Shown here in pieces: positions 1 to 31,613 of a stretch of DNA of 64,000 nt; position 1 is the first letter of the stretch, and each line of letters starts with the position of its first letter. The stretch is from Natrinema ejinorense (GTDB lineage: Archaea; Halobacteriota; Halobacteria; Halobacteriales; Natrialbaceae): assembly GCF_002494345.1 (NCBI RefSeq), contig NZ_NXNI01000001.1:558001-622000 (forward strand). The letters run 5' to 3'. A program made the translations under genes and the position numbers. Under the pieces are notes generated by a model, which saw only the letters and a program-made list of their open reading frames with translations, was not told the DNA's origin and searched no databases.

Positions 1-1
1 C

Positions 2-787
2 GCCACCGGCCGCACGTCCCAGACACCCACATGGCTGGAAAACCACGGTTACCCATCGCCACCTGCCGAGGAGATTCGCGTTGACGTCTCTTACAACACG
101 GTCGCGATCGAACGGCCGCCGACCGACCGCCGACTATTCGTCGTTTCTCCCTCCCCGTCCCGAACCTCTTACGGCGGACTCTTTCCCGTAGAGGACGGTC
201 GGTGGCTTGCGATCCTCGGAGAGATGCATTCCGACGGGCCACCGCCGAACGCTGAGACGATCACGTCGATCGCCGAGAATCTCCCAATCCCTCACGTCGA
301 GCGACTCCTCACTACCCAGCCGTGGATAGATCGCGAGGTCCGGAGTTACTTCTTCCCGTCGAACGTTCGCTGGCGTTACGAGGATATCGATTCGTTTCCC
401 GACAATCTCGTCGTCGTCGGCGATGCGATAGCGAGCTTCAACCCTATTTACGCACAAGGCATGTCAGTGGCGGCGCTCGAAGCGCTACTGTTACACCACC
501 TCCTCGCAGACGGGATACCTGACGACATCGGGCTTCGATTCTTCGAGCAGGTCACGGCGGTCGTCGATATCGCGTGGCAGTTGGCGGTCGACAGCGACCA
601 CCGGTTCCCCCAGACATCCGGTCCGTCGCCCAGAGGTTCCGGGTTCCGCAACCGATACCGTTCTCGAGTAATCCGTAGCGCTCACTCCGACCCGACGGTA
701 GCTGACGCGTTCTATCGGGTACTCGCGATGCAACACTCCCCTACGTTACTGCTACGCCCTGGTATCTTGTGGCGTGTCTTGACGTAG
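2..787 (+). CDS. FAD-dependent monooxygenase-like protein, C-terminal part
   Basis: The frame is open from the window edge, so the N-terminal Rossmann FAD-binding part lies outside; 261 residues are visible. The segment VVVGDAIASFNPIYAQGMS (about bases 410-465) is the second FAD-binding GD motif of the FAD_binding_3 / p-hydroxybenzoate-hydroxylase-like and geranylgeranyl-reductase-like families. The C-terminus, rich in Arg and Pro, resembles haloarchaeal and actinobacterial FAD oxidoreductases of unknown substrate. It ends 16 bases before the convergent O-methyltransferase gene, so the two may belong to one metabolic unit without being co-transcribed. The substrate cannot be read from the sequence. 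Confidence 0.7.
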   Translation, partial: ATGRTSQTPTWLENHGYPSPPAEEIRVDVSYNTVAIERPPTDRRLFVVSPSPSRTSYGGLFPVEDGRWLAILGEMHSDGPPPNAETITSIAENLPIPHVERLLTTQPWIDREVRSYFFPSNVRWRYEDIDSFPDNLVVVGDAIASFNPIYAQGMSVAALEALLLHHLLADGIPDDIGLRFFEQVTAVVDIAWQLAVDSDHRFPQTSGPSPRGSGFRNRYRSRVIRSAHSDPTVADAFYRVLAMQHSPTLLLRPGILWRVLT

Positions 788-803: not shown

Positions 804-1814
804 CTACTTCGTCGCGACCACCATCGTTTCGGGGGTCGGAAGGTCCCGCACTTCCGTCTTCGAGAATCCCACCTCTCGAAGCCAGGTCTCACACTCCTGT
901 GGCGTGTAATCGAAGCCATCCGCCGTCTCGACGAGCGTGTTCAGACTCACCAGCAGCCCCATCTCGTTTTCGCGACGTTCGTTATCGATCATGGTCCCGT
1001 AGACGAGGAGCACACCGCCCTCCGGCAGGGCCTCGTAGGCACGTTCGAGTATCTCTTTTTTACCAGATAGTCCCCAGTCGTGGATGATACGGCCCAAAAT
1101 GAACACGTCGTGTTCCGGGAGGGGGTCCTCAAGGAAGTTACCGCCGTGAAACGAGACCCGGTCGTCCATTCCGCGTTCCGCGATGAACTCCATCGATATC
1201 GGTTCGAGTTTCGGAAGGTCGAACGCGGTCGCCTCTATATGGGGATTTTTCTCAGCGATTGTCACCGGCACCTGCCCCTCGGCAGTTCCGAGGTCACACA
1301 CCGTCTCGTACTCTTCCCACTCGAAGGTTTCCGCGATAACGGTGGCGACCGCGAGACTGAATCCCGTCATCGAACTGGCGAACCGCTCGAGACGCTCGTC
1401 CGCTTCGTAGAGCGCGTTGAAATACTCGTCGTCGTCATCGAGGTCGACTTGAGGTTCCCCGGTTCGAACTGCGTCCGCGAGGTTCATCCACGCCGGATAC
1501 ATTCGATTGTTTCCCAGAGCGAGCGCATCTCCCACGTAGGTTTCCTTGTTCTGGTCGAGGTACAGATCGGCATCGGGCGCGTTTCGGTACAGTCCGTCGT
1601 CACGTTCGAGAAAGCCCAACGCGACGAGGGCATCGAGAAAATCGGCCGATGCTCGCGGATGGAGATCGAGCCGCTCTTCGAGCGCCTCTCGCGTCAGCGG
1701 TTCTTCCGCTAACTCGGTAAATACCCCCAGTTCGACGGCGGCAAAGAGCGCTTTTGATGCGAGGAATCTGAATCCCGTCTGAATGATACGATTCGGCGTG
1801 ACGTCCCCAGACAT
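804..1814 (-). CDS. SAM-dependent O-methyltransferase (AdoMet_MTase_2/hydroxyneurosporene-type)
   Basis: A 336-residue protein with the two-domain layout of dimeric small-molecule O-methyltransferases. Residues 8-90 form the winged-helix dimerisation domain (SKALFAAVELGVF, then an HTH-like segment). The Rossmann methyltransferase domain follows, with the AdoMet glycine motif VCDLGTAEG near 172-180 and IIHDWG near 243-248, where this family carries its catalytic His. ATG at 1814 is preferred over the in-frame GTG at 1820 because an A/T-rich TATA-like stretch sits about 30 bases upstream. Likely substrates are hydroxylated aromatics or isoprenoids; this is inferred from family only. The gene abuts an FAD monooxygenase-like gene tail-to-tail. 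Confidence 0.8.
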   Translation of the reverse strand: MSGDVTPNRIIQTGFRFLASKALFAAVELGVFTELAEEPLTREALEERLDLHPRASADFLDALVALGFLERDDGLYRNAPDADLYLDQNKETYVGDALALGNNRMYPAWMNLADAVRTGEPQVDLDDDDEYFNALYEADERLERFASSMTGFSLAVATVIAETFEWEEYETVCDLGTAEGQVPVTIAEKNPHIEATAFDLPKLEPISMEFIAERGMDDRVSFHGGNFLEDPLPEHDVFILGRIIHDWGLSGKKEILERAYEALPEGGVLLVYGTMIDNERRENEMGLLVSLNTLVETADGFDYTPQECETWLREVGFSKTEVRDLPTPETMVVATK

Positions 1815-1840
1815 AAACACAACAAATTATCGAAGCCATT

Positions 1841-2064: not shown

Positions 2065-2340
2065 TCAGGAATGGTCCGTGAGTTCGACCGACGAGGGAGA
2101 GGGCTCCCGCTCACGGTCCGCGATTTGCGTCTTGCAGCCGAGTCGCCGTTTGTCGTTGACGAAGAAGGGCGTCGGAGCTACAGACGGCCTGCCGACAGGA
2201 ACGACAGAAGTACGCGAGGAGTCGTACTCGTCGCGGGCGTACGTGACCGCGTCGAGGACGCCATCTCCTTCTCGAAGGGCACGTGGAAGTCGTCGAAGCG
2301 GTTTCTGCTTGTCCGCCACTTCGGGGGCATAGCGGAACAG
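2065..2340 (-). pseudogene. sdhB: Decayed sdhB (succinate dehydrogenase iron-sulfur subunit) fragment
   Basis: Directly downstream of sdhD, the minus strand encodes recognisable pieces of haloarchaeal SdhB in alternating frames. LFRYAPEVADKQ is followed in a second frame by FDDFHVPFEKEM, then in the first frame VLDAVTYARDEYDSSRT, then in another frame the 2Fe-2S cluster motif FCRSCRQAVCSSDA, then back to FFVNDKRRLGCKTQIAD. Small compensating indels (about -2, -1, -1, +1) separate them. The N-terminal extension with its start codon is missing, as is everything after about one third of the subunit, including both other Fe-S cluster regions. An intact SdhB is near 290 residues. No sdhA remnant was found between here and the O-methyltransferase gene. 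Confidence 0.85.
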
Positions 2341-2359: not shown

Positions 2360-2725
2360 TTAGATCATCCCGTTCATCGTGAGTGCGACGTAGGTTCCCT
2401 GCGCGACGAGTCCGACGCTGACAACGACCAGCACTGCCAGAACGGCCTTCTTTTGCGTTCCCTCCAACCCCTGGTTGACCAGCGCGTTGTAGACGCCGTT
2501 GACACCGTGGAAGGTAGCGGTGATCAGGAACAACACCATTGTCAACAGGTACCCAACGTTTTGCATTCGGGCCTGAGTACCCAGGAAGCTTACCTCGTAG
2601 GCGTGGTTGACGAAGTGTAAGAGGAAGAAGTGGAAGGCGAGAACGACCACCAGAAACGCCGCCGTGACCCGCTGGAGGAACCAGCGCGTGCCGCCGGGCG
2701 TAAACGAGGAGTAGCGTTCCGCCAT
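2360..2725 (-). CDS. sdhD: Succinate dehydrogenase membrane anchor subunit SdhD
   Basis: A 121-residue hydrophobic subunit of complex II with three transmembrane helices (about 14-37, 55-80, 94-116). The H-x2-NG motif (ATFHGVNGVYNAL, near residue 70) is the haem/quinone-site histidine region. Its ATG overlaps the sdhC stop by one base (TAATG), the normal haloarchaeal sdhCD junction. The reading frame looks undamaged, although the sdhB that should follow is a fragment. Complex II would need Fe-S and flavoprotein subunits encoded elsewhere. SdhC and SdhD naming is sometimes exchanged in archaea. Confidence 0.85.
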   Translation of the reverse strand: MAERYSSFTPGGTRWFLQRVTAAFLVVVLAFHFFLLHFVNHAYEVSFLGTQARMQNVGYLLTMVLFLITATFHGVNGVYNALVNQGLEGTQKKAVLAVLVVVSVGLVAQGTYVALTMNGMI

Positions 2726-3153
2726 TAGAGCGTTACCCCCGCGAGGAAGGTCGGAACGCTCGCGACGGTGATCGCGCCCGTCAACACCAGCGAGGCGTAG
2801 AAACTCTTGTCCTGTGACTCGAGTCCGATCCCGAGATCAACCATCAGCAGGCGGAGGCCGTTCAGGATGTGGAAGACGGCCACCGCGAGCAAGCCGATCT
2901 CGAGCAGCCGGATCAGGAACAGGCCCTCGAGCCCCTGTAGCGTCGTGGTGTAGACGTCGTTTTGTGCTTGGATGACTCCGGTACTCTGACTTGATGCGCT
3001 GATAGACGTGCTCAGCACGGCGATGTGAGTGAACAGGTAGCCGATCAGGATCCACCCGGTGAACTTGTGGAGGATCCACGCCCACATGCCGGCCGAGAAC
3101 TCCTTCCAGCGACCGAAGTCCTCGATGAGACCGCGATTGTAAGACTGACTCAT
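2725..3153 (-). CDS. sdhC: Succinate dehydrogenase cytochrome b556 subunit SdhC
   Basis: A 142-residue membrane anchor of complex II. HKFTGW (about 29-34) starts the first transmembrane helix, and [15 protein letters not shown] (about 113-127) matches the SdhC signature containing the haem-b ligand His. A loop near 47-70 (Ser/Gln-rich) connects helices 1 and 2. This is the first gene of the operon; about 160 bases separate it from the next gene upstream. The protein appears full length and intact. Confidence 0.87.
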
Positions 3154-28343: not shown

Positions 28344-29042
28344 TTAAGCTCGCAACTGCTCGTGAAGCTCCCGAATCCGCTCGGTCCCGCGATCCACGTA
28401 GCCGCCGTGATAGCACACGGTGTGCTCGATTTCGAGTGCTGCCAGAGTGTCGACGGAGTCGACCGCGCGTTCCATCTCCGGCGTGAAGCGTGGTTTCGGT
28501 CCCTCGAGCGGTTTCTCCCCGTCCGCGACGAGCGCATCGCCGGCGACGAGCAGCTTTCCCGTCGGGAAATACAGCGAGACGTGGCCGGGCGCGTGGCCCG
28601 GCGTGGCGACGACCGCCATCGGCCCTGCGACCGTCGGGAATCGAACGCCATCGGTGAGTTCGATATCGATATCGACGGGTGGATACCGGCTCCCCTCGCT
28701 TTTGATCGGCTCCCGCTCGCCCGACACGTACGGCGCTTCCTCGCGGTGGGTCGCGACGACCGCGTCGACTCGCTCGAGCAGTTCCGCGAGCCCGCCGGCG
28801 TGATCCCCGTCGTGGTGGGTCAGGAGGACCAGCCAGATGTCATCGAGGTCGTACTCGAGGGCCCGGAGGTGCGTCTCGAGCCCGTCGACGGCACCCGGGG
28901 GACCGACGTCGAGCAGTACGAGTCCACGGTCGCTTTCGACGATCGTCGGCGTTACCGTCAACTGCTTGCCGCCGTACTCGACCGGAATCGGCAGCACGTG
29001 AACGCCGGCGTCTTCCTGCATATGACGCCCATTCCCTGCCAT
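28344..29042 (-). CDS. Metallo-beta-lactamase-fold hydrolase
   Basis: 232 residues with the glyoxalase-II-like signature TCHHDGDHAGG-type motif seen here as LTHHDGDHAGG near 74-84, VATPGHAPGHVSLYFP near 145-160 and VAGDALVADG near 166-175, giving a complete dinuclear metal site. The first Asp-rich strand is LVLLDVGPPGAVDGL. Two ATGs are possible, 29042 and 29021. It is likely a soluble hydrolase of thioesters or lactones; substrate unknown. Confidence 0.82.
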   Translation of the reverse strand: MAGNGRHMQEDAGVHVLPIPVEYGGKQLTVTPTIVESDRGLVLLDVGPPGAVDGLETHLRALEYDLDDIWLVLLTHHDGDHAGGLAELLERVDAVVATHREEAPYVSGEREPIKSEGSRYPPVDIDIELTDGVRFPTVAGPMAVVATPGHAPGHVSLYFPTGKLLVAGDALVADGEKPLEGPKPRFTPEMERAVDSVDTLAALEIEHTVCYHGGYVDRGTERIRELHEQLRA

Positions 29043-29110: not shown

Positions 29111-29139
29111 TATATATAATAATTACCAACGGTTTATTA
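29111..29139 (+). promoter_or_regulatory. Promoter of the terpene-synthase-like gene
   Basis: A/T-rich block with TATATATAAT at 29111-29120 and TTTATTA at 29133-29139. The second box is centred 28 bases before ATG 29164, fitting a leaderless transcript. Confidence 0.55.
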
Positions 29140-29163: not shown

Positions 29164-30159
29164 ATGAGAACTGAGCGTCAGTTCGCAGCCCTCGAGGCTA
29201 CCGACGAGTCGCTTGCCCGGGTCCGAGAACAGGAACTTTCCGAGACGATCGATCCACTGATCGACGCATACGACGATATCGTCGGTGACAGGGATCGGTT
29301 CATCTGGCACTGGCTCGCATACCTGTTTCCGTCGGTTCGACTCTCCTGTGTCGATGTCGATCGCGAGCGCGCGGTTCACGACGCGAAACTGCTCGCGTCG
29401 ATATTCATCGTCGTGGCCGACGACGTCGCCGAACGACACGGGGATCGGGCGACGTTCGACGAACTGGCTGCGATCCCGTTCGATCATCGACGCTCCCACC
29501 CTGACCGACCCGCCGTCGACGGTGCCGTCGTCCGCTACCTGCAGGACGTCTGGGAACGGTTCTCGACGATATACGACGCCGGTCCCCGATCGGCGGAGTT
29601 CGCGGACCTCCTGGCGTTCGATCTCAAGCAGGCCCTGCGGGCGATCGAGTACTCGTATCTCGCGAACCAGTCTCCCGACCTCGTCTCCGAACACGAGCTC
29701 TGGCAACACGACGTGCACAACATGCTGATACTCGTCTGTGCCGACATCGACTTCGCGAACGCCCGGTCGTTCGACTCGACGGAGCTATCGAAGCTGCGGG
29801 AGGTTTGCGATCGGGGCCAGCGGATGGCCCGGATCGGCAACTGGATCTCGACCTGGAAGCGGGAACTCGCCGAGGGAGACTGTAGCGCCGGAGTCGTCGT
29901 CCACGCGCTCGAGGCCGATATTATCTCCGACAAGCAGGTACGGCGGATTCGACGGACTCCGACCGACGAAGCCGTCTCCCCTGTCGTCGAGGCCATCAGC
30001 GAATCCGGCGTCGAGGACTACTTCCTGGAGCGCTGGCAAACTGAATACGAGGAAGCCAGCCGGCTCGAGTCCGAGATCGAGAGCGTCGATATCGGGGCGT
30101 ATCTCGAGGGATACGAGACGGTGTTGCAGTACCACATCGCAAGCGAGGGGAAAAAGTAA
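29164..30159 (+). CDS. Class I terpene synthase-like protein
   Basis: 331 residues, all-helical in appearance. FIVVADDVAERHGD near 81-94 resembles the acidic DDxxD/E motif of class I terpene cyclases. RMARIGNWISTWKRELAEGD near 221-240 places N-x3-T-x3-E exactly as in the NSE/DTE magnesium motif, followed by the usual acidic Gly-Asp turn. Length and motif spacing (about 140 residues) match bacterial sesqui/diterpene synthases, although the C-terminal RY pair is not evident. It would ionise a prenyl diphosphate. The gene is monocistronic with its own A/T-rich promoter; no prenyltransferase or P450 gene adjoins it. Confidence 0.6.
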   Translation: MRTERQFAALEATDESLARVREQELSETIDPLIDAYDDIVGDRDRFIWHWLAYLFPSVRLSCVDVDRERAVHDAKLLASIFIVVADDVAERHGDRATFDELAAIPFDHRRSHPDRPAVDGAVVRYLQDVWERFSTIYDAGPRSAEFADLLAFDLKQALRAIEYSYLANQSPDLVSEHELWQHDVHNMLILVCADIDFANARSFDSTELSKLREVCDRGQRMARIGNWISTWKRELAEGDCSAGVVVHALEADIISDKQVRRIRRTPTDEAVSPVVEAISESGVEDYFLERWQTEYEEASRLESEIESVDIGAYLEGYETVLQYHIASEGKK

Positions 30160-30251: not shown

Positions 30252-31613
30252 ATGCGTGTTCGACACGTCAAGTCGTCGACGGTCCTCGTCGAATCAGGAG
30301 AGACCGCCGTCCTCTGTGACCCCTGGATCCTCGACGGCGCGTTCTACGGTGCCTGGGCACACTACCCGCCCGTCGAGTTCGAGCCCGAAGATTTCAACGA
30401 CGTCGACTACATCTACGTCTCCCACATTCACCCCGACCACTGCCACCGCGAGACGTTCGAGCGACTCGACTCCGAGGTTCCCGTCCTCATCCACGACTAC
30501 AACTGGGACTTCCTCAGACACAACGTCGAGGCCGCCGGATTCGACGTCCGCGAACTGCCCCACGACGAGCGGATTCACCTCGGCGACGACCTGTCCGTGA
30601 ACGTGCTCGCGTCGGACGACTGCGACCCGGCGGTGTGTGGCAATCACTTCGCCTGCCCGTGGATGGCCGAAGACGCCAGCACGCAGGGGATCGACGGCTC
30701 GACGCAGATCGATTCCATGGCGGTCTTCGACGACGGCGAGCACACCGTGCTCAATCTAAACGACTGTCGCTGGCCGATGTCCCAGCACGCTGCCGGCCGC
30801 GTCAAAGAGCAGTACGGCGAGATCGATCTGGCCATGCTGCAGTACACCTTCGCGGGGGGGTATCCCCAGGGCCGGATCGACTACTCCCACGAAAAACTGC
30901 TCGCGGAACGCGAGGACCGCCGGCTCCAGTCGCTGGAAAACGCCGTCGGCTTCCTCGAGCTCCTCGAGCCCGACTACTACATGCCCTTCGCCGGCAGCTA
31001 CACGCTCGCGGGCGATCTCGCGGACCTGAACGAGTACGTCGCGCGGTCGACGCGATCGGAGGCGCGAGACTACTTCGAGGACGACGAGCGGGTCGCCGAC
31101 GGCTCGGAGTGTATCCTCCTCAACAGCGGGGAGTGGTTCGACGTCGCCACGGGCGAGCAGTCCGCGCCGTTCTCGCCCGTCGATCAGGAGCAGCGCCGGG
31201 AATACATCGAAACCGAGCTCGCAGACCGGGAGTTTACCTACGAGTCGGATCCGATGCCGACGCTCGAGTCGTTCGAGGAGTACGTCCCGACGGCCTACGA
31301 GAACTTCGACGCCAAGCGCCGCGGGATCGGGTTCGAGTCGGAAACGGAAGTCCTCCTCTCGCTGGTCGACGACCACTACATGCGATTTACGGCGGACGGC
31401 GGCGGCCACGAGATCGTCGACGGGCTACCGGACCGAACCGATCGCCGACGGGTTCGAATGGAAATGGATCCCCGACTGACGCTGCGAATCCTGAAGGGGC
31501 CGCGGTACGCCCACTTCAACAACGCCTACATCGGGTCCCATCTCGGCTTTTCGATCGAACCCGACGTCTACGAGCGGTCGCTGTTCTACTCGATGAGCTT
31601 CCTGCACGCCTGA
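30252..31613 (+). CDS. UlaG/CMAH-like metallo-beta-lactamase-fold protein
   Basis: 453 residues. The N-terminal 230 residues hold an MBL fold: [16 protein letters not shown], then [15 protein letters not shown] (HxHxDH, near 55-60) and [10 protein letters not shown], as in UlaG-like and CMP-Neu5Ac-hydroxylase-related hydrolases. The C-terminal 200 residues have no family I can name. The first gene upstream is the terpene-synthase-like gene, 92 bases away with a separate promoter. Substrate unknown. Confidence 0.78.

Follow-up and report, generated by a model that had tools for sequence, protein, structure and literature searches.

The locus and its reading frame

The window, the whole 64,000-nucleotide stretch of the Natrinema ejinorense contig that we analysed, holds a forward-strand open reading frame that begins with ATG and encodes 331 residues before its stop codon (Table 1). 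These boundaries agree with the 331-residue chain of the preliminary description, whose proposal that the gene has its own leaderless promoter gained support from the upstream sequence. In the closest relatives the surrounding sequence has diverged, yet a TTTATTA box persists at about the same distance from the ATG, a pattern consistent with leaderless transcription in haloarchaea that also settles which codon is the start. Against close relatives, dN/dS ranges from 0.17 to 0.38, which indicates that the gene is under purifying selection.

Table 1. Features of the window, with positions counted from its first nucleotide
Feature	Position	Strand	Basis or remark
End of FAD oxidoreductase of the paralogue island; gene begins before the window	1-787	+	
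O-methyltransferase of the paralogue island	804-1820	-	PF00891, 1e-32
sdhB-like remnant at island end	2065-2319		
Second copy of sdhD/sdhC (succinate dehydrogenase membrane subunits), island border	2360-3153	-	
Divergent metallo-beta-lactamase-fold hydrolase	28344-29042	-	PF00753, 2e-27; immediate neighbour in 14 loci, mainly Natrialbaceae
TTTATTA box, likely TATA element of a leaderless promoter, 31 nt 5' of the ATG	29133-29139	+	Sequence; same distance in closest relatives
Putative class I terpene synthase, 331 aa	29164-30159	+	ORF; PF19086 below threshold; AlphaFold2 model; PDB matches; 52/125 family genomes
Asp-rich metal motif DDVAE (residues 86-90: D86, D87, two residues, E90)	29419-29433	+	Residue conservation in 59 homologues
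Broken helix G region (residues 176-198), with near-invariant N186-M187 and no conserved pyrophosphate-sensor Arg	29689-29757	+	DSSP; column counts; profile alignment to bacterial synthases
NSE-type metal motif NWISTWKRE (residues 226-234: N226-x3-T230-x3-E234), Trp replacing the canonical Asp	29839-29865	+	Residue conservation
Beta-lactamase-superfamily protein, downstream, probably unrelated	30252-31613	+	PF12706, 7e-8; not conserved beside the family

In the window's clade the genes adjoining the synthase include none recognised as a tailoring enzyme, and no prenyl-diphosphate synthase was identified next to the window gene. Apparent prenyl-synthase neighbours from a motif scan were discarded because they overlap a protein cluster read as a cystathionine-gamma-synthase-type enzyme. 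Elsewhere, SnoaL-like or FAD genes adjoin other relatives of the synthase.

Both metal motifs that had been picked out are present in the expected order, and their separation, put earlier at about 140 residues, is 140 residues exactly. We scored the pair as DDxx[DE] followed by Nxxx[ST]xxxE with 125-155 residues between them. It arose in 0.12% of 20,000 shuffles of the window protein and was found in one of the 704 neighbouring proteins that are 250 aa or longer, compared to 57 of the 59 family members. The motif pair in the window protein is more than chance.

An alignment of 59 diverse homologues (30-69% identity) showed how tightly these positions are held. D86, D87, N226, W227, W231, R233 and E234 are invariant in all 59. 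Position 90 is Glu in 51 and Asp in eight, so that every homologue has DDxx[ED], and position 230 is Thr in 58 and Ser in one, which leaves N-x3-S/T-x3-E in 59 of 59. Further invariant residues are Y36, R43, W50, W130, D153, Q156, D196, R212, R223, D239 and W291.

Predicted fold and putative diphosphate-binding residues

We modelled the protein with AlphaFold2, using the family alignment as input, and obtained an all-helical structure of high confidence (mean pLDDT 94, pTM 0.92) with the fold of a class I terpene synthase, in which DSSP places breaks in helix G at residues 182 and 188. The top Foldseek matches in the PDB were a Streptomyces diterpene synthase, T-muurolol synthase and VenA (E 1e-4). 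Each of the best 50 PDB entries from VIA-align was a class I terpene synthase or a terpenoid cyclase domain, with Z scores of 19.5-21.4 and 260-290 residues aligned (Z up to 21.4 over 286 residues). The top VIA-align match, bornyl diphosphate synthase, was tied with many others and was set aside as uninformative on the product. The all-helical chain of the preliminary description is thus borne out, as is its expectation that structure prediction would return a terpene synthase fold. A different fold, or loss of the motifs in close homologues, had been named there as telling against a terpene synthase; neither occurred, as the model has the class I fold and both motifs persist throughout the 59 diverse homologues.

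Sequence searches gave fainter signals. The HMM search that had been proposed was positive in that the protein matched PF19086 (E 3.5e-4), and fell short in that its 20.8 bits lie under the 23.7-bit gathering cut-off. With a limit of E<=1 the same profile picks up 25 of 26 relatives, the best at 5.7e-8, and 15 of the 59 reach E<=4.5e-5, roughly the gathering cut-off. Searching PDB sequences with the single protein yielded no relative, only a chance ubiquitin-family match (E 0.77), and the family profile matched nothing there. An hhalign comparison with a profile of 15 bacterial-type synthases was weak (probability 2.4%, E 0.02); in that alignment DD falls on DD and NWISTWKRELAEGD on NDIASLEKEEARGE. 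Since this comparison is weak, the case rests on fold and motifs together, not on sequence homology alone. On that footing, the window gene very probably encodes a soluble class I terpene synthase, and in both fold and probable chemistry the preliminary description is upheld.

The superfamily fold is also that of the enzymes of lipid and carotenoid synthesis, and GGPP synthases were among the Foldseek matches, so we considered whether the protein is instead a relative of prenyl-diphosphate or squalene/phytoene synthases. Trans-prenyl diphosphate synthases are recognised by two DDxxD motifs; here the second motif is N-x3-T-x3-E and no Pfam polyprenyl_synt match was found. Squalene/phytoene synthases carry two DxxxD motifs and match the SQS_PSY profile, to which the window protein has no Pfam match at E<=10. 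The patchy presence of the family among genomes, described below, would also ill suit an essential lipid step, and we regard a role of this kind as highly improbable.

As a class I terpene synthase, the window protein resembles the bacterial-type enzymes of PF19086 (pentalenene synthase 1PS1, T-muurolol synthase and VenA) in length, all-helical fold, an Asp-rich motif near residue 90, an NSE-type triad near residue 230, the helix-G break and a Trp near the C-terminus (W291). Our yardstick pentalenene synthase sequence was identical to PDB 1ps1_A. The window protein differs from the bacterial-type enzymes in having DDxxE where they have DDxx(x)D and NW..T where they have ND..S, and identity in structural alignments is about 10-18%.

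PMC8450962 gives the usual bacterial anchors as two motifs, DDxx(x)D and ND(L,I,V)xSxx(K,R)E (the NSE motif), together with three further elements: an Arg located 46 residues N-terminal to the NSE motif, an Asn eight to nine residues C-terminal to it, and, in the C-terminal part, an RY pair that follows a Trp at a distance of six residues. In the window family the second NSE position is Trp in 59 of 59 homologues and the canonical Asp is absent. The sensor-Arg position, 46 residues before the motif, is the variable W180, and the profile-aligned position, Q181, is Arg in just 25 of 59. Ser or Ala (residue 242) replaces the Asn after the motif, and the RY pair is missing: W291 is invariant, yet residues 297-298 are a variable E-A. 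Judged by its residues, with three diphosphate-anchoring positions altered, the predicted synthase is not a canonical bacterial-type enzyme.

In canonical enzymes the sensor Arg and the NSE Asp are hydrogen-bonded partners, so it is coherent that both should be absent together. There is also a precedent in sestermobaraene synthase SmTS1, a class I enzyme that is active without the sensor Arg, the NSE Asp (Gln in SmTS1) or the Asn after the motif (PMC8450962). Because SmTS1 works without both anchors, their loss does not refute function, and the window family would be a distinct variant. The likeness concerns motif positions; SmTS1 is a Streptomyces enzyme with the Asp-rich motif NDLTV (PMC8450962).

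Distribution of the family and its genomic settings

When genome contigs were scanned, the single protein recovered nothing, whereas the alignment as query recovered relatives. The gene is carried by 52 of 125 genomes of its own taxonomic family, its own genome counted in, and by 120 of 391 sampled genomes of its class (~31%). Additional families within the phylum have relatives as well, some methanogens among them (one being a Methanohalobium MAG, L090). One methanogen family (L165, L168) has very divergent relatives that keep N-x3-T-x3-E, which reads SNTVNTWKRE in L165; the L168 copy is broken. Family members were also seen in bacterial MAGs (L120, L130), and because these lie on contigs of 5-6 kb that may be misbinned, we draw no conclusion on spread to bacteria. 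Natrialba chahannaoensis and a Halobacteriales MAG carry the synthase in tandem or repeated copies (L063:9914-12296; L069). Four genomes (G041, G018, G253, G617) hold fragments or stop-interrupted copies, which suggests that the synthase may have been lost repeatedly. Six plasmid-borne homologues were checked and all six are annotated "hypothetical protein". By sequence comparison, the window synthase is a member of a widespread archaeal family that databases label "hypothetical".

A second synthase copy, 37% identical to the first, lies in the same genome 3.3 kb before the window. It sits in an island of ~16.7 kb (contig 543627-560360, G000:C1; loci L188 and L172) that ends at window position 2359 and has a GC content of 54.6%, compared to 63.5% in its flanks. 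The island is bordered by two sdhCD copies that are 85% identical, and a same-species genome has the uninterrupted site. Alongside the paralogue it encodes two P450s, two FAD enzymes, two methyltransferases, an aminotransferase, and SnoaL and UbiA proteins. Tailoring enzymes such as P450s, FAD enzymes and methyltransferases are usual for cyclised scaffolds, and this natural-product-like setting supports the view that the family probably contributes to secondary metabolism. In other haloarchaea, synthases directly adjoin or lie near FAD oxidoreductases that share about 50% identity with the island's own (L080:10953-12323; L106:11823-13172).

Other relatives keep different company, often regulators of the light/oxygen type. 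At a distance of one or two genes from the synthase, 29 of 303 positions are taken by Bat-like regulators (PAS-GAF-BAT-HTH_10), compared to 3 of 1032 further out, and the counts for HalOD1 proteins are the same (29/303 and 3/1032). Histidine kinases fill 12 of 153 positions at distance one and 6 of 743 at five or more genes. The relatives beside a Bat-like regulator and HalOD1 are loci L086, L089, L091, L092, L096, L109-L112, L123 and L127, and L075, L076, L084, L085, L118 and L126. These regulator genes may be co-directional with the synthase or divergent from it, a variability that argues against mere synteny, and the Bat-linked synthases form one clade (support 97/95). In Halorussus halophilus the stop codon of the synthase gene overlaps the first codon of a gene for an HTH regulator, and HalOD1 comes next. 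A histidine kinase directly follows the synthase in the Methanohalobium (L090:5911-8295) and Thermoplasmatota (L125) relatives, and has multiple PAS domains in the former. Because the loci are related and haloarchaea possess many regulators of these types, we infer a functional linkage rather than observe one.

For some members of the family, the arrangement suggests a product that may be made under regulatory control or act as a signal. The window's own clade is free of regulator linkage. A more specific proposal is a form of haloarchaeal terpenoid signalling, in which the synthesis or perception of a diffusible terpene would be controlled by the adjacent Bat-like, HalOD1 or histidine-kinase proteins and the window clade would be a de-linked branch; we offer it tentatively and consider it rather doubtful. 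The adjoining genes for Bat-like, HalOD1 and histidine-kinase proteins beside so many relatives could also bring to mind a catalytically dead synthase fold, retained to sense isoprenoids by binding them and to communicate with the regulators next to it. Against this, every metal ligand is invariant, which is not the pattern of pseudo-enzymes, and such a sensor is very unlikely.

Predicted chemistry and significance

Homology of fold and motifs suggests how the window protein would work as an active synthase: DDxxE of helix D and N-x3-T-x3-E of helix H would coordinate three Mg2+ ions, and these in turn would bind the diphosphate group of the substrate, an allylic prenyl diphosphate. Departure of the diphosphate would ionise the substrate to a carbocation, which would be folded within the helical barrel into a terpene, probably a cyclic one. 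GGPP is the main archaeal precursor, and this C20 compound is the most likely substrate; FPP or the C25 compound GFPP may also serve.

The same fold and metal chemistry could end differently, with the prenyl cation quenched by water to a linear alcohol or the prenyl group moved to an acceptor. Such an outcome would accord with the altered diphosphate anchors (Trp for Asp, and no conserved sensor Arg or RY pair), and terpene cyclases that have a cryptic function as aromatic prenyltransferases are reported in PMC7414894. The closest structures, in contrast, are cyclases or terpene synthases, and the paralogue sits among tailoring enzymes of the kind usual for cyclised scaffolds. A non-cyclising enzyme is therefore an unlikely reading, and formation of a probably cyclic terpene remains the one we favour.

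Terpene synthases make scents and antibiotics in plants and Streptomyces and are the basis of much natural-product chemistry; to our knowledge, archaea are hardly credited with them. In the open-access literature we found no study of the window synthase family. The title of a preprint by Samusevich et al. (bioRxiv 2024.01.29.577750, cited in PMC12797696) claims archaeal terpenoid biosynthesis via structure-aware prediction. Its enzymes may cover the window family, and given that title we do not claim a first archaeal terpene synthase here. We did not equate the antiSMASH "terpene clusters" of haloarchaea (PMC8600319) with the family, as the passage that describes them names no enzyme.

Class I terpene synthases of another kind also occur in haloarchaea. 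Plasmids of Actinarchaeum halophilum and Halocatena marina (L182:5494-7841; L183:5467-7851) carry operons of a canonical, Streptomyces-like synthase and a polyprenyl synthetase, genes that are annotated as hypothetical or SRPBCC. These synthases match pentalenene synthase by sequence, have the canonical ND..S and lie next to a prenyl-diphosphate synthase, whereas the window family has none of these features.

The regulator linkage and the island-borne tailoring cluster provide concrete leads to the function and product of the window family. With its altered diphosphate-binding residues and its presence in about one third of sampled haloarchaeal genomes, the family would offer culturable hosts and a ready test for archaeal cyclic terpenes.
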